From an uncultured Bacilli bacterium (GTDB taxonomy: Bacteria > Bacillota_I > Bacilli_A > RFN20 > CAG-826): a stretch of 41,602 bases of DNA. Both the position numbers and the translations under genes were made by a program. Shown piece by piece: positions 11,894-22,645 of this stretch; the first letter of the stretch is position 1, and each line of letters begins with the position of its first letter. Location of the stretch: the NCBI GenBank assembly GCA_947625975.1, contig CANQQL010000008.1, forward strand, positions 1 to 41,602, given 5' to 3'. A model generated the notes under the pieces. It saw only the letters and a list, made by a program, of their open reading frames with translations. It was not told the DNA's origin and did not search any database.

Positions 11894-13135
11894 TTAAAAA
11901 TTTTTATAGTAATTGGTATTATAGCGATTAATTATATATTTTAAATCATTATTATTTATTAATTTAACCTTTATTTCACTAATCAAGGATAGAGAAGGAC
12001 GCGCAAATTCACTATTCGTAATGATCCAAACTTCATCAGCCTTATGTTTTTGCTTAGCAATTAAAAATTTATTAACATATGCCGGCGTAATCTTACCTAA
12101 ACTTCTCTTGATAAAAACAAGGACAGTTTTACCTTCTGTTTCCATATAAAGAAATGTTCCAATCTTATCATCACTTTTAATTTCAATTTCCGTCTTATAA
12201 AGTGATTTAAATGCCAATTGAACCCAAGATGTAAACTTTCTACCGTTCATAGTGTTAATTTTACGCAAGGTTGCTTCATTCATCTTTTTAATATGCGCAT
12301 GTTTTTTATTAGCGTCATTTATTGATGCGCAATCCTTATATAATTGATAAGAATCCAATAACATGAGCAAATTATTGACCTCTTCCAATTTGTTTTTCAT
12401 TATTTTCAAGCGTCTAATGCGTTTAGTTAAGATTACTTGATTTTGATATTTAAAAATAAAATCGCACATTAATAAGATTCGATCATCGACTATTGTTTTT
12501 GTTTCAATCGTTAAATCTGCATAAAAATAAACACGCGGTTCAATGAGCTTATTAGTAGTTTCATTAATGACCACCAAGGCCCCATTATAAACAAAAAATA
12601 GTGTTTTTTTATGTTTAAAATAATTATTTGTGCCAAAACAGCATGTAATTATCCAGTCAATAGTGGGCTTTCTTCGTTTTTTTAACAAAAATACAATTAA
12701 ATCTTTCAATAATTTAGGTTCTCTTAAATCTTCAAGTAACCGCACATCTATCAATTTCGGTAACTCTTGTAAGGCATTCAAATCAAATAATAAATTCTTC
12801 TTCTGTTTTTGCTTATTTTTATTAAGTGATGCAATTAAATCATTGCAATTGGAATTAATAAGAGAAAAATTTTCAATATTTTTTAAAACATCATTATTAT
12901 TAATGTGGTTTATTTCGCGAATGCTGATTTTTTTATTTTTAAGATTAATGTCTAATTTTCGTTCTGTCTTCGTTAAAAACTTATTATATTTATGATAATA
13001 AAGATTATGCAAACGATGTTTATGGAGACCTTTAATTGCTAAAATACTGACGATAAGCAATATTAAAACAATTAAACTTACCAAGACTAAAATTTCTTGC
13101 TTTGACATGTAATAAGTCAATAACATCTTGCTCAC
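11894..13135 (-). CDS. Membrane-anchored protein with a C-terminal Mrr-like restriction-endonuclease-fold domain
   Basis: N-terminal TM; C-terminal MNGRKFTSWVQLAFKSLYKTEIEI...KTVLVFIKRS...VWIITNSEF pattern. Confidence 0.65.
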   Translation of the reverse strand: MSKMLLTYYMSKQEILVLVSLIVLILLIVSILAIKGLHKHRLHNLYYHKYNKFLTKTERKLDINLKNKKISIREINHINNNDVLKNIENFSLINSNCNDLIASLNKNKQKQKKNLLFDLNALQELPKLIDVRLLEDLREPKLLKDLIVFLLKKRRKPTIDWIITCCFGTNNYFKHKKTLFFVYNGALVVINETTNKLIEPRVYFYADLTIETKTIVDDRILLMCDFIFKYQNQVILTKRIRRLKIMKNKLEEVNNLLMLLDSYQLYKDCASINDANKKHAHIKKMNEATLRKINTMNGRKFTSWVQLAFKSLYKTEIEIKSDDKIGTFLYMETEGKTVLVFIKRSLGKITPAYVNKFLIAKQKHKADEVWIITNSEFARPSLSLISEIKVKLINNNDLKYIINRYNTNYYKNF

Positions 13136-14319: not shown

Positions 14320-16275
14320 TTAATCCGCTAAACGTCTTTTCTTGATAATTGCATAGCATAATGCAGTAAATAAGGCTAATCCTGCAACAATAGCAACTGT
14401 ATTTGAATTATTTTTTGAAATGCTTAATAACGAAATCATTTGATCAAAGTTTGAAGCACTAGTGCTATTACGCCACTCAAGTAAAGCTCTGAAATATTCA
14501 ATATTTTCTTTAATAGTAACTTGAGTTTTATCTGTCATATCATCAACAATAGTTCTGACCGATTCATCCATATCATCATATTTTTTAATTAAGTCTTCTA
14601 ATTCAGCTTGTTTAGTAATAGTTTTATGACCATCAACACTACCTTCACAAATATTTCCATTAGTTCTTAAATTGTCCCATAATTCAACAAATTTAGTTGC
14701 TAATGTAGAATCTGGATATGAATAAAATTCAAATTTTGGAGCCTGTACACGATCTTGTCCAGTAGTATTGGAGGCTTCTTCGTAAATAACCGCGAATAAG
14801 GCGTTACTATAATTTTTTGTAAATATATGAACATGTTGCTCTTTATCATTAAATGTATCTGAACTTATTTCATGTTCATCAATTTTTTTATAAGTTGTAC
14901 CATTATCAGTACTAACTAAAATATATCCTTTTTCTGGAGATGTGCCATCTGCTTTATTATAAGAAATAGAAATACCACCAATCTTATCCATTGGTTTATC
15001 TTCTTGAATAATACCGAAATATCCAACTTGGGATGTTTCTATTCCTAAAGCATCAGCAATGGCTTTTGCTTTAGGATTTTGCTTAGTGTCAGCAGTGCTA
15101 CCATCATTGGTACCATCTAACGTCAGATTTTTCCTACTATCCTCATTCTTACTAGTTCCTAAATATAGTCCTGCAGTTTGCATAGATCCTAAAGTAACAG
15201 TCCACTTTGTTCCATTTGAATCAGAGTTTGTATAAGATTTATACTGATTCTCTGTTGCAATTTTATCTTTTGATGTATCTAAAGTATATTTTAAAGTTGG
15301 GGTTAATTTCTGCAGAGCCTTTTCAGCAGCTTCTAATTTAGTTAATGCTTCAGCAATACCAGCAGCATTTTTATCTTGCAAAGCTTCATATGCTGCACGT
15401 GCTGCTTCGATTTTCTCTTTGCAAGCAACAGTAATTTCATCTGCAGGTGGTAATTCATTTACCATTTTAATAAATGCTTCAGCAGGATCTACTACTTCTA
15501 TACCATCAATTGTTATTGTTGCTTGTTTATCATTTTCGGTATATGTTCCAGTAACAGAAGTGGTTTCTTTTGTTAATGGAGTTGGTGTCCATTTTACTTG
15601 GGCAGTTACATCTTTGTCTGCTACATCTTCTTCTTCATATTGAGCATATATTGTAAGTCCAGCCGGATTAAATGATTCACCTATAGCATAAACTTTTTGT
15701 GGCTCACCTTCTAAACGTAAATCTGATTTTAACGTGCCCGATGGTGCCACTGGTAAGAGCCATAAGTTAGTTTGAGTTGAGGCATATGATCCAAATCGTG
15801 GATTGCTGGCGTTAAATTGAAAAGCATAATTGCCCATGGCAAATTTTATTAAATTTTTAGAGGTATCATTAGAAACTGTAAAGTTTGCCTTAGCTGATTG
15901 AATTAAATGTTTTCCTTTATCTTCTTTAGTCTTAATTGCAATGTAAAGACCACTACTTTTAATTTTAATGCTCCAACTAGTGTCGCTTCCTTCTAAAATA
16001 ACTGACGATGCTTCATCTAAAGTGTTCGTACATTGACCTACCTGCGATGTAGAAGAATCAGTGTTACCAAAAGCCTTAAAATAATAATCTGTCTTGCTAG
16101 TAGTAGCACCAATAAAATACTCATTACCACTAGTAATTTTTGTATAATCAGTTATTTTTTCTTCTGCTGCATCAACAGGAAGCGTTTCGCTAGCGCCTTT
16201 CTTTACAAGTCCTACTCCCATTAGCATGGCAAAAGATGCAATAAGAACAGATAACTTTTTTGTGAAATTTTTCAT
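14320..16275 (-). CDS. Large surface protein: signal peptide, Ig-like (Big_3-type) domain, FIVAR-like helical region, C-terminal TM-KKR anchor
   Basis: 651-aa ORF; MKNFTKKLSVLIASFAMLMGVGLVKKGASETLPVDAA leader shared with 17146..19410; AIVAGLALFTALCYAIIKKRR tail; own terminator. Confidence 0.85.
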   Translation of the reverse strand: MKNFTKKLSVLIASFAMLMGVGLVKKGASETLPVDAAEEKITDYTKITSGNEYFIGATTSKTDYYFKAFGNTDSSTSQVGQCTNTLDEASSVILEGSDTSWSIKIKSSGLYIAIKTKEDKGKHLIQSAKANFTVSNDTSKNLIKFAMGNYAFQFNASNPRFGSYASTQTNLWLLPVAPSGTLKSDLRLEGEPQKVYAIGESFNPAGLTIYAQYEEEDVADKDVTAQVKWTPTPLTKETTSVTGTYTENDKQATITIDGIEVVDPAEAFIKMVNELPPADEITVACKEKIEAARAAYEALQDKNAAGIAEALTKLEAAEKALQKLTPTLKYTLDTSKDKIATENQYKSYTNSDSNGTKWTVTLGSMQTAGLYLGTSKNEDSRKNLTLDGTNDGSTADTKQNPKAKAIADALGIETSQVGYFGIIQEDKPMDKIGGISISYNKADGTSPEKGYILVSTDNGTTYKKIDEHEISSDTFNDKEQHVHIFTKNYSNALFAVIYEEASNTTGQDRVQAPKFEFYSYPDSTLATKFVELWDNLRTNGNICEGSVDGHKTITKQAELEDLIKKYDDMDESVRTIVDDMTDKTQVTIKENIEYFRALLEWRNSTSASNFDQMISLLSISKNNSNTVAIVAGLALFTALCYAIIKKRRLAD

Positions 16276-16376
16276 AATAATTTCCTTTCGTTTTTTTGAT
16301 TTTATTAGGCTAGATTATTACTTCGTGAAACCAAGATGGATATTTTTCGCATCATCAGAGAGATAAGAAATCCGCT
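16164..16376 (-). repeat. Left arm of a perfect 213-bp inverted repeat (5' UTR, RBS and signal peptide)
   Basis: Reverse complement identical at every position to 17045-17257. Confidence 0.97.
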
Positions 16377-16595
16377 CGCCGATTATCATTATAGTTGATA
16401 TAGGTCAAACACGAGTTGCTAATCTTTTTAGACAATATCATTTTACACATATACGCACGCGTATGCAAGTGGAAAAATTTTAATTTACTTTAATTGCCAA
16501 CATAATTCCATATTAACAATTTAAAAAAACTTATAATACACTAAATTTTATGCAATTATACGCCAAAAAATAATTTAGATAATTTTTTCTTTTTC

Positions 16596-16627
16596 TGTTC
16601 GCTCAAAAGGCGAACATTTGTTTTTTT
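16596..16627 (+). terminator. Terminator-like hairpin inside the core between the inverted-repeat arms
   Basis: tgttcgc-tcaaaag-gcgaaca followed by tttgttttttt. Confidence 0.5.
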
Positions 16628-16654
16628 GTGGTGAAGGGGGGACAAAAAAACAAA
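16617..16654. repeat. 13-bp perfect inverted repeat with a G-rich loop in the core
   Basis: tttgtttttttgt-ggtgaagggggg-acaaaaaaacaaa. Confidence 0.75.
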
Positions 16655-16694
16655 TAAATCAAAAGAAAAAACTAATAAATTTATTTGTGGGTTA

Positions 16695-16755
16695 GTTTAT
16701 ATTAATTTACTATATGTTAACAAATACAATTTGTACTAAGTAAATTAACATAAAC
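16695..16755. repeat. 17-bp inverted repeat (one mismatch) near the centre of the core
   Basis: gtttatattaatttact ... agtaaattaacataaac. Confidence 0.75.
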
Positions 16756-16851
16756 CATAATATTAAAAATGCTTTGGCCGATCTTTAGAGGCATGTGCTA
16801 CTTATCAGCATATCAAAATAAAAATATTGGCAGCTTTAATTCATAAAATAA

Positions 16852-16923
16852 TTTTCCTTAATTCAAAATATTTAATGAGCTGTTATTTAATAAAATTTTT
16901 TCTTATAAATAAATTAAGGAAAA
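16852..16923. repeat. 12-bp perfect inverted repeat in the core
   Basis: ttttccttaatt ... aattaaggaaaa. Confidence 0.65.
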
Positions 16924-17044
16924 CATAATTAAAAATAATTTTTTATTTAATTTAACAAAAAACTACTGCATTTTTCATTTAATTTAGATAAAAAATTGTT
17001 TTAAAAATGATTTGTATTTTTTTAAAATTTTACTGCAATTCAGT

Positions 17045-17257
17045 AGCGGATTTCTTATCTCTCTGATGATGCGAAAAATATCCATCTTGGTTTCACGAAG
17101 TAATAATCTAGCCTAATAAAATCAAAAAAACGAAAGGAAATTATTATGAAAAATTTCACAAAAAAGTTATCTGTTCTTATTGCATCTTTTGCCATGCTAA
17201 TGGGAGTAGGACTTGTAAAGAAAGGCGCTAGCGAAACGCTTCCTGTTGATGCAGCAG
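17045..17257 (+). repeat. Right arm of a perfect 213-bp inverted repeat (5' UTR, RBS and signal peptide)
   Basis: Identical to the reverse complement of 16164-16376; 668-bp unique core lies between the arms. Confidence 0.97.
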
Positions 17258-19410
17258 GGGAATTGAAAGAAATTTCTATTAATATAGGGAATTATGTTTC
17301 TGAAAAAGGATATAAAATTTCTAGTAATTCAACAATTAGCAACTATAAATCTCTTATACTTGATGACAATATTGAGATAAAAACAAGTGGTTCAAACAAT
17401 AACGAAGGATCATTTTGGAAAAGCAATGATGTTGTTGATTGGCGTTTGTATCAAAATTCTTCCAAGGATGTCATTTTACATGCAACTAATGAAGATGTTT
17501 TAGAAATAAATAGTTATAAAATATCTTACAACATAAATAATACTGGCACTTTAGCAACAAAATCAGGTACCTCAATAGCCACTGCTAATAAAATTGACTC
17601 AAATACTGTTCAAACTGTTAATGATACTAGTGTAACAATGTACGTCGCTAATACAAGCACTAAAACAAATGGACAAGTTAGAATTACTGACATTAGTGTT
17701 ACTTATACTTTAAAAGCAACTGAAACGAAGAATGTAATAGAGGTTACAGATGTTGCATCTCATCCAAAAACTGTCTTTCAAGACAAAAACATAGATGGCA
17801 AAGATGTATTATTGAATGTTAAATATGATGACAATAGTACTGGAACAGAACCTGCAGATCATGTTATGGTTGATACATCTGTTATTAAGGACAATGTAGT
17901 TGCAACAGCTTATTATGATGCTGAAGAAACTATGTCTGCAACATTTATTGTAAATGTAATTGAAAAGCCATTAATTGATATTTTAACGATTGATAATACA
18001 ACTAAGTCTACTTCGTATACAGATTGGGAAACAACAAGCGAAGATACTAACATAACGTATAAAGGCAATTCTATGGCTCATTCGAGTACAGCAATTCAAC
18101 TTCGATCTTCGAATAGCACCTCAGGTATTATCTCTACAACTGTACCTGATAATCTTGTAATTAATTCGATTACTGTTGATTGGACTGTTGACACTAGCGA
18201 TGATAGACAAATAGATATTTATTTACAAGACACTCCATTTACTGCTGTATCTGATTTATATGGAAGCACAATTAGCTCTGTTGGTAATATAAAATTTACT
18301 GATGAATCTCACACTTATGTAGCCACTGACGACTTTTCTTACTTAGGTATAAGAAGTCACTTAGGTACTTTATATTTAAATAGTATTACGATTGAGTATA
18401 GAACCGCAGATCCTAATAAACCTTCAATATCTATTGATAATCAAGAATATCCGCAGCAAATGCATATTAATGATACTTTGGAATTAAGTGCTACTACAAC
18501 TAATGCCGATAATGCTGAAATTGAATGGTCCGTAAGTAATGATACTGCCGCAGAAGTAGACAATAACGGTAAAGTAACAGCTAAAGCAAAAGGTACATTT
18601 AATGTAACTGCAAAAATTAGTGTTAATGGAAAAGACTATAAGGCAACAACTCCTGAAATTAAGGTTGTTGACTGGGTACATGAAGGTACTGAAAAAGATC
18701 CGTTTAGCGTGGAAGATGCATTAAAAGTTTGTATTGAAACAGGTGAAACAAACACTAGTGAAAAATATTATGTTAAAGGTATAATTACTAATATTACCCA
18801 AATATCCCTTGAACATGGTAATGCAACATTTTATATTGACGATTCAAAAGATGGTGGAAATACATTCGAAATATATAGAGCTAACTATTTAGAAAACGAA
18901 AAGTTTACTGCTGAAAATCAATTAGCGATTGGTGATACCGTTGTTTGTTATGGCTATTTGATTAATTATAAGTCAAATACTCCAGAATTAGCTCAGGGTG
19001 GATATGTTTATAGTCATACACCAGGAATTACCGTGGCACAAGAATTCTTAAATGATTGGTATGCATTAAGAAATGATGAAGGAAGTATTTGTGATAATTT
19101 AAATGAGCCAACAAAATTAGAAGAAATGCTTCAAAGATATGATGCTTTAAATCCAGAAGATAGAGCAGTTGTGGATGCCGCAACTGAAAAGGATGACACG
19201 ACACTTGTTAAAACAACTATTGAATATTTGCGAGGACTCCTTAATAACAATAAAAAAGATGCTGGAAATGAGCATAATACAACAGCAGGTTTATTAATAT
19301 CTCTTTCAGAAAACAATAAATCAGTTTCTTTAATTACTTTGTTTGCTATCTTAGGATTAGTTGCAATATCCACTTACTACTTTATTGAGAAAAAAAGAAT
19401 AGCAAAATAA
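17146..19410 (+). CDS. Large surface protein: signal peptide, Ig-like domain, OB-fold-like domain, C-terminal TM-KKR anchor
   Basis: 754-aa ORF; leader identical to 14320..16275; GTEKDPFSVEDALKVC...YYVKGIITNI...GDTVVCYGYLINYK OB-like module; SLITLFAILGLVAISTYYFIEKKR tail. Confidence 0.85.
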   Translation: MKNFTKKLSVLIASFAMLMGVGLVKKGASETLPVDAAGELKEISINIGNYVSEKGYKISSNSTISNYKSLILDDNIEIKTSGSNNNEGSFWKSNDVVDWRLYQNSSKDVILHATNEDVLEINSYKISYNINNTGTLATKSGTSIATANKIDSNTVQTVNDTSVTMYVANTSTKTNGQVRITDISVTYTLKATETKNVIEVTDVASHPKTVFQDKNIDGKDVLLNVKYDDNSTGTEPADHVMVDTSVIKDNVVATAYYDAEETMSATFIVNVIEKPLIDILTIDNTTKSTSYTDWETTSEDTNITYKGNSMAHSSTAIQLRSSNSTSGIISTTVPDNLVINSITVDWTVDTSDDRQIDIYLQDTPFTAVSDLYGSTISSVGNIKFTDESHTYVATDDFSYLGIRSHLGTLYLNSITIEYRTADPNKPSISIDNQEYPQQMHINDTLELSATTTNADNAEIEWSVSNDTAAEVDNNGKVTAKAKGTFNVTAKISVNGKDYKATTPEIKVVDWVHEGTEKDPFSVEDALKVCIETGETNTSEKYYVKGIITNITQISLEHGNATFYIDDSKDGGNTFEIYRANYLENEKFTAENQLAIGDTVVCYGYLINYKSNTPELAQGGYVYSHTPGITVAQEFLNDWYALRNDEGSICDNLNEPTKLEEMLQRYDALNPEDRAVVDAATEKDDTTLVKTTIEYLRGLLNNNKKDAGNEHNTTAGLLISLSENNKSVSLITLFAILGLVAISTYYFIEKKRIAK

Positions 19411-19431: not shown

Positions 19432-19465
19432 AAGGGCACATAAATTATATTATGTGTCCTTTTTA
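19432..19465 (+). terminator. Rho-independent terminator for gene 17146..19410
   Basis: aagggcacataa-...-ttatgtgtcctttttt-type hairpin. Confidence 0.8.
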
Positions 19466-19489
19466 GTAATTTCTTGCTATCTTATGCAA

Positions 19490-21049
19490 CCTGACTTTCG
19501 ACAAAATCGAAAAAAGTAGTGTTAAATCTTAAAATTAAGTAATTTATGAATATCATTTTTCTTTAAAACGTAGTTATCCAAGTTTAAATTAAGAATATTT
19601 TTAAAAGATAGAATTTTATTTTTAGAAGAGAGATTTATAATTCTATCTTTTTCATTTAAAACGATAAACGATCTGATAAAATCTATAATTTGATTTGTAT
19701 GTACTTTGTCATGGAATGTTTTTATTTGAAGGATTCTTAAGACAAAAACAGAAAGATAACAAATTAAGAAGTGACCATAAATAGAGTTTTGTTTAAAACA
19801 ATATACAGGTCTGGCATCAAGTTCAGATTTAAGAATTCTAAAAGATTCTTCGATTCTCCAAAGGCGATGGTAGACATTATAGATATCTAACGGGTTCATA
19901 TTTAATTCAGAAGAGATAATTAAATTATATCCACATAGGGATAAATCCTTTTTAATTTTATCCTCATTTAAGGAAGCAATAACCAACGTATCCTCATTAA
20001 TTTCACCATTAGAGTTAACCGGAGTAAATAGCACATATTTCGAAGCATCACCATATTCTTTTCTTTTAGCTTGAGATAGAGAAAGAGATTTAATTTTATC
20101 AATTTGTTTGATAATTTCAGCTTTTTGTTTTTTAGCTAAAGAAGGATTATATGAAGCGATTCTAATTTGTTTCACAGAGAATTTAGAATTATCCAATTTA
20201 TAAGAAAAAGTATCGATACAAGTTTTATAACGAAACTCGAGATTGCCCAAAGAATCTGTCACATCGATGTAATCATTATCGAGTAATACCCATTTTTGTT
20301 CTTTTTCCTCAAGTTTCTTAACGGATTGAGAATAAATATAGCCATCACCATTAAAAAGTGCATCGTAAATGTTTTTGGCACAGTTCAAACCTTTATCAGC
20401 AACTTGAATTGTTCTACCATTCATATGGAATCGTTCTTTCATTTCATTGATACAGTGTCTAATAATCGTTTTTTCTGATTCATTACCTGGATATAGTTTC
20501 ATCGTTAAAGGAATTTGGTCTTCGTCAAGCAATAAACCCATACCAACAATAGGGCCTTTTCTGTTCTCTTTAGAAGGGCCTTTTCTTCTAAAATCATCTT
20601 CTGAATCGATTTCAAAATAATAATTCGTACAGTCAAAATAAACATTGCCAGTTTTACGAGAAAATTTTTCATTATAAAATTCGTTGAAAACTTCAAGAAT
20701 ACGCGAATAATTATCTCCAATGAAATCTAATTTATCAATTTGATCTTTAAAAATGTTATAAGATTTGAATAGAGTAGGTAACACTTCTTCAAAAGTTTTT
20801 ATTTTTGAACAAGGATTAATAATTCTACAAGAAACCATGTTTAGTAATCGTAAGTAGAAACGTTTTCATTTTCGATTTTATCCAAAAGGTCTAAATGAAA
20901 TTTGATACCTAATTTATTAAAAACGCCTTTAATAAGAAAGTAACCTAAGATTTTAAATAGGGGATTCATCAATTTTAATTAAGCATATTAAAAGTTAAAA
21001 CTCTTATTTTTTTATCGAAAGATTTGTAGTGTTAAAGTCGAAAGACGGG
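19490..21049 (-). mobile_element. IS1634-like insertion sequence
   Basis: Imperfect 13-bp terminal inverted repeats cctgactttcgac (19490-19502) / gtcgaaagacggg (21037-21049), 11/13 matching, flanking a DDE transposase; no clear target-site duplication. Confidence 0.65.
19522..20969 (-). pseudogene. IS1634-like transposase in two frames: N-terminal ORF 20841..20969 and main ORF 19522..20838
   Basis: Main ORF has FDCTNYYFE, VADKGLNCAKN and YHRLWRIEESFRILKSELDARPVYC. The upstream ORF MNPLFKILGYFLIKGVFNKLGIKFHLDLLDKIENENVSTYDY* is continuous with it if one nucleotide is restored. Confidence 0.7.
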
Positions 21050-22033: not shown

Positions 22034-22171
22034 AATCGCTTTATATTCTTTAGAATTCGTCCTGCAAATTTAATATTCACCACTTTATTATAAATTGTAA
22101 TTTTATTTTTGTTTGCAACAATTTCTTACCATTTCTCTCTTTCTTTGTTGCACTTAGTTTTATAATTAACA

Positions 22172-22410
22172 GCCGCAGAAGTAGACAATAATGGTAAAGT
22201 AACAGCTAAAGCAAAAGGTACATTTAATGTAACTGCAAAAATTAGTGTTAATGGAAAAGACTATAAGGCAACATCTCCTGAAATTAAGGTTGTTGACTGG
22301 ATACATGAGGGTACTGAAAAAGATCCATTTAGTGTGGAAGATGCATTGAAAGTCTGTATTGAAACAGGTGAAACAAACACTAGTGAAAAATATTATGTTA
22401 AAGGTATAAT
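22172..22410 (+). pseudogene. 239-bp internal fragment of a paralogue of surface-protein gene 17146..19410
   Basis: Ungapped match to 18547-18785 with 8 mismatches by eye. Confidence 0.9.
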
Positions 22411-22478
22411 CTTTTGCGGGATTCTTTTTACTCAGAAGGAAAAGACGACCGAACGTTAAAAAAATAATACACTACATT

Positions 22479-22510
22479 AAGGAGCATAATTCAATATTGC
22501 TCCTTTTTTA
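22479..22510 (+). terminator. Rho-independent terminator
   Basis: aaggagca-...-tgctcctttttta. Confidence 0.8.
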
Positions 22511-22551
22511 GTATTTTCTTGCTATCTATGCAAAACATTATATAATTAAAA

Positions 22552-22645
22552 TGCAGAGTAACTAGAAAGCGTTAAGTGCTATATCATGGGAAGTTGGATA
22601 TAGACGAACACTTTGGTGGCGGTTTTCTAGTGCGTCCGCTGTTAA
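22552..22645 (+). promoter_or_regulatory. Tetrahydrofolate (THF, folT-type) riboswitch
   Basis: gcagagtaac...gcgttaagtg...gggaagttg...gacgaac...ggtggcgg...tagtgcgtccgctgt matches the conserved blocks of the folT/THF riboswitch; lies directly upstream of a folate ECF S component. Confidence 0.9.

Follow-up and report, generated by a model that had tools for sequence, protein, structure and literature searches.

A perfect inverted leader repeat heads two divergent surface-protein genes and may form a compact promoter switch in an uncultured Bacilli bacterium

Judged by design, the closest described counterparts of the locus reported here appear to be the sap locus of Campylobacter fetus and the slp segment of Lactobacillus acidophilus. 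In C. fetus, as Dworkin & Blaser reportedly found in 1996, one promoter sits on an invertible segment and the surface-protein genes are divergent, with identical starts. Several sap genes are carried on this segment of about 6 kb, and Ray et al. are said to have observed in 2000 that its inversion also occurs without RecA. Inversion of the L. acidophilus slpA/slpB segment was reportedly described by Boot et al. in 1996, and this segment spans several kilobases. The inversion exchanges an active and a silent surface-protein gene (PMC6176008). In the vsa locus of Mycoplasma pulmonis, the vpma locus of M. agalactiae and the Ureaplasma mba/UU172 locus, inversion joins a promoter, with or without an N-terminal coding region, to alternative surface-protein bodies; recombination is site-specific at short sites, and vsa and vpma hold several silent genes (PMC4534519, PMC3047005). 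The hsdS genes of Streptococcus pneumoniae invert at 85- and 298-bp inverted repeats that lie inside genes, and deletion of recA had no detectable effect on this inversion (PMC4948785). Finally, the gut invertons found by PhaseFinder-type scans are described as having flanking repeats of 10-40 nt and being flipped by invertases (PMC11892184).

The window analysed here, 41.6 kb of DNA making up the whole of contig C8, belongs to a 1.27-Mb draft genome in 66 contigs that is 89% complete. It contains two divergent surface-protein genes, A and B, whose starts form a perfect inverted repeat: positions 16164-16376 (arm 1, minus strand) and 17045-17257 (arm 2, plus strand) are reverse-complementary at 213 of 213 positions, and the exact match ends abruptly on both sides. 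An ungapped repeat finder reported the same inverted repeat as 218 nt at 99% identity. The contig gave no second inverted repeat 40 nt or longer, and in the ~428 kb formed by the window and related loci the leader pair is the only perfect one that reaches 30 nt. A chance origin is excluded. Each arm consists of 101 nt upstream of the ATG, including the RBS, and 112 coding nt (37.3 codons), which correspond to the 5′ UTR and 37 signal-peptide codons of gene A in arm 1 and of gene B in arm 2. The coding part stops at the residues DAA, compatible with a signal-peptidase site. Rfam assigned no structured RNA to the leader, the scan yielding THF riboswitches only. An earlier note on this DNA had described the exact repeat, this order of upstream part, RBS, ATG and about 37 signal-peptide codons, two proteins, 651 and 754 aa long, and a core of 668 bp between the arms, all of which our measurements reproduce. 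It had also envisaged exchange with further leader copies elsewhere, and for this the draft genome gave no backing: the leader occurs in two copies.

Gene A (14320-16275, minus strand) encodes a 651-aa surface protein. Its signal peptide (residues 1-37), common to A and B, is followed by a unique N-terminal and middle part and then by a C-terminal domain with a membrane anchor; no Pfam family scored above its cut-off. Gene B (17146-19410, plus strand) encodes a 754-aa surface protein with the shared signal peptide, an N-terminal module that we call X, a Big_2 middle and a C-terminal anchor. The Pfam and NCBIfam scans returned no S-layer families. Outside the leader, the two proteins have the C-terminal domain and membrane anchor in common over ~130 aa at 32% identity, and no similarity was detected between their middle parts. 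The common C-terminal domain indicates that A and B are paralogues with divergent middles. The earlier note had called the mature proteins otherwise different, which holds for the middles but not for the C-terminal ~130 aa. Other members of the family share with A and B only this anchor domain.

To see the locus in its genus, we compared the source genome with three sister genomes, G001, G002 and G003 (n = 4). The divergent A/B pair is syntenic in all four, with the same neighbours. On one side these are an ABC transporter and a protein of 413 aa that has an Mrr-type domain; here and in G001 and G003, a 311-aa protein also stands on this side. On the other side a folate-type ECF component, SmpB and UppP are conserved, as seen in the two sisters whose contigs extend there. 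In G002 the pair is divided between two contig ends, and the G001 contig stops within gene B. The recurrence of the pair and its neighbours in 4/4 genomes indicates that the divergent pair is old and is not an invention of the assembly.

The identity of the arms is another matter. Inside each sister genome, the coding parts of the A and B leaders are 69-78% identical. In the closest pair, G001 and G003, the A leaders match each other at 95% in both UTR and coding part, and the B leaders at 91% (UTR) and 81% (coding part), so that the leaders cluster by side and not by genome. Since the sister leaders are unequal and group by side, the perfect identity is recent and specific to the source genome. 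Local divergence points the same way. A decayed copy of part of gene B (22163-22411, plus strand, approximately codons 465-547), the remnant of a former tandem copy, differs from 18544-18785 at 9 of 242 positions (96% identical), 7 of the 9 at third codon positions, and comparison of this value with 0/213 for the arms (Fisher p = 0.004) supports the recency of the arm identity. The earlier note had proposed very recent exchange or ongoing homogenisation; the first fits these data, whereas homogenisation as a continuing general habit does not, given that the leaders of G001 and G003 evolve by side. The sisters also carry a conserved upstream block of its own before each gene, and lack perfect arms, which implies that switching, if it takes place, would be peculiar to the lineage of the source genome. 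We also noted 5′ UTR elements (TCTCAANTATC ... GCCT) conserved before both genes of the sisters (locus L067, 13225-13414 and 13715-14006), for which common regulation is possible.

The mature domains have a more mobile history. The middle part of gene B is orthologous to that of gene B in the sister genomes (53-55%), and no relative of the middle part of gene A was detected in the sisters. Module X forms the N-terminus of gene B here, whereas in G001 and G003 it belongs to gene A (53% to the G001 copy); G003 has it in gene B as well, where it is 67% identical to the gene A copy, with the similarity beginning inside the signal-peptide region. These comparisons indicate that, on an evolutionary time scale, different mature domains have come to stand behind the leaders by exchange, as the earlier note had anticipated when it suggested that new mature domains would be put behind the same leader. 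Orthology of gene A to the sister genes outside the leader was not supported by the comparison, and the C-terminal domains did not separate cleanly into A and B groups either, their tree being unresolved. An apparent swap of N-terminal modules between gene A of the source genome (labelled G000 in the cross-genome comparisons) and gene B of G001 looked significant with the leader included, disappeared without it (E = 0.5) and was set aside.

Between the arms lies the core (16377-17044), 668 bp of 22% G+C that is invertible in principle and has no second substantial copy in its own draft genome. At its A end we found a promoter-like block (16440-16468, minus strand) with the arrangement TTGCAT-17-TAAAAT, whose spacer contains the CG-rich motif ACGCGTGCGTATATG; it faces gene A from a distance of 187 nt upstream. 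In the sister genomes the corresponding block, composed of TTGC..., a CG-rich near-palindrome (CACGCGCGTATG or similar) and a -10-like hexamer, stands before gene B, at 179 (G001), 203 (G002) and 180 nt (G003) from the ATG. The A sides of the sisters lack it, and that of G002 gives a weak cross-match to the gene-B model. A profile trained on the three sister gene-B upstream regions matched the A side of the source genome at 16491-16442 (minus strand) with 8.7 bits and E = 1.4e-4 in 870 nt, a weak call in an AT-rich target, with E = 0.07 over the loci scanned. Shuffling the core 2000 times at the dinucleotide level gave no score as high, and outside the training loci the model matched the source A side and the G002 A side only, among the loci scanned. 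Because the CG-rich motif is near-palindromic, the orientation of the block rests on the flanking CTTGC and on the spacing. At the B end of the core, neither the A model nor the B model gave anything significant, and the core as a whole contains no more generic promoter matches than shuffled sequence does. A strict IUPAC pattern for the block had 0 matches in its own genome; it was over-strict and was replaced by the profile. Local alignments of the whole core to sister intergenic DNA were also discarded, as they scored the same as shuffles owing to AT-richness. The core also contains a terminator-like hairpin (16596-16616, plus strand; TGTTCGC...GCGAACA followed by a T-run; 1 found against 0.2 expected), which within 16596-16655 adjoins a second hairpin, in which a perfect inverted repeat of 14 bp, ATTTGTTTTTTTGT, encloses GGTGAAGGGGGG.

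We infer from these sequence features that the block probably acts as a promoter and that, with the core oriented as assembled, gene B would be without one and silent, although its AT-rich end of the core could still hold a promoter that our models do not recognise. When the core was flipped in silico, the block came to lie 187 nt before gene B, with both reading frames and both proteins unchanged. As the arms are equal, a flip of the core gives the arrangement of the sisters, with the block before B, and alters neither protein. The inversion between the arms suggested in the earlier note makes sense anatomically, in that one recognisable promoter block would change owner. Against a switch stands that a simple two-promoter flip would predict the A-type promoter of the sisters at the B end, where it was not found.

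We therefore consider it about an even bet (roughly 0.5) that the locus is a compact A/B promoter switch of the sap/slp kind, combined with a slower process in which mature domains behind the leader are exchanged. The arms would recombine with each other, RecA-dependent homologous recombination being the simplest route, and the resulting flip of the core would hand the block from gene A to gene B with the reading frames kept, such that one surface protein would be made at any one time. Gene conversion through the shared starts would maintain the identity of the leaders, and the same starts would, more slowly, allow new mature domains to enter behind the leader. Arms of 213 bp are in principle enough for homologous recombination, and the source genome encodes RecA. 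XerC and XerD are encoded on contigs other than the window, and no recombinase gene was recognised within its 41.6 kb. A 200-aa serine recombinase on contig C30 (L076, 1498-2100) is weakly Mpi-like, far under the family cut-off. Since recA deletion had no detectable effect on hsdS inversion and sap inversion reportedly also occurs without RecA, RecA would be no more than one candidate enzyme for the flip, and it is from the anatomy of the locus that flipping in living cells is suggested.

A possible reading, to which we give real weight while thinking it somewhat improbable, is that recent gene conversion, one-off or occasional, equalised the leaders at an ordinary fast-evolving locus with fixed promoters at which both genes are expressed. 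The sisters, in which the two leaders differ and each gene has its own conserved upstream block, are what this explanation leads one to expect, as are the two leader copies in the draft genome and the window free of recognised recombinase genes, and the G003-like copy of the N-module shows that conversion between A and B does happen. What conversion alone leaves unexplained is the gene-B block at the A end together with its absence from the B end.

The perfect identity, or the orientation of the core, might also stem in part from assembly, either through similar leaders collapsed to one consensus or through an arbitrary orientation of the core. The draft is fragmented and incomplete, and, if it was assembled from short reads, the arms exceed the typical read length and small differences between them could have been collapsed. 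We nevertheless hold this to be improbable, because three independent assemblies show the pair again, in the divergent layout and among its neighbours; moreover, the proteins behind the arms differ, so that the locus itself is real and no more than the exact identity or the orientation could be affected. Less credible still is a vsa-like or pilin-like system in which silent cassettes elsewhere recombine into the leader. The mature domains behind the leader do differ between species, and a near-identical 242-nt fragment of gene B lies downstream, but that fragment is broken and without a leader, the draft genome has no third leader copy, and the other family members match only in the C-terminal anchor domain.

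Set against the described systems, the candidate promoter switch resembles sap in that A and B are divergent surface-protein genes whose shared 5′ starts form inverted arms, and the single promoter in the sap segment has its putative counterpart in the one promoter-like block at the A end, with none recognised at the B end. It differs from sap in comprising 668 bp and two genes, in an unrelated organism with apparently unrelated proteins, and in being predicted from sequence. The slp genes encode S-layer proteins, a type that the family scans did not return here, and their segment measures several kilobases against 668 bp. The comparison with vsa drawn in the earlier note fares poorly. A promoter and leader that inversion could join to alternative surface-protein bodies recall vsa and vpma, but here the arms are 213 bp long, the genes are two, and no recombinase gene was recognised nearby; with n = 2 leaders in the draft genome, an array of silent genes is lacking, and a dedicated recombinase was not recognised in the window. 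The sap/slp design is the closer functional analogue. With hsdS the locus shares long inverted repeats inside genes, whereas in hsdS it is the bodies of methylase specificity genes that inversion changes, and not promoter ownership. As in gut invertons, a candidate promoter-bearing invertible segment lies near surface genes, here with arms of 213 nt instead of 10-40 nt.

If the core flips, this would be a very compact switch of the sap type, of which the literature searched describes none for this lineage, and the genus would offer a before-and-after comparison, the sisters having two promoters and unequal leaders. A tentative and rather unlikely extension is that a minimal antigen switch based on homologous recombination arose in one small-genome genus, from an old divergent two-promoter pair whose leaders were homogenised and which lost one promoter. 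Were this true, arms of this length would escape ordinary inverton scans. Gut inverton surveys, with their 10-40 nt repeats and short reads, could possibly have a blind spot for arms of at least 200 bp.

An IS1634-family transposase gene (19522-20838, minus strand) is inserted after gene B, and together with a RecG-C-terminal-like fragment it separates gene B from the decayed copy. The 3′ flank of gene B is duplicated too, at 19458-19490 and approximately 22503-22533. Viral contigs, phages and plasmids gave no match. The 413-aa protein found beside the pair in all four genomes (11894-13135) combines an N-terminal hydrophobic stretch with its Mrr-type nuclease domain. On the gene B side, a THF riboswitch (22552-22643; Rfam RF01831, 72.5 bits) precedes the ECF folate-type transporter component, which here has an N-terminal extension.
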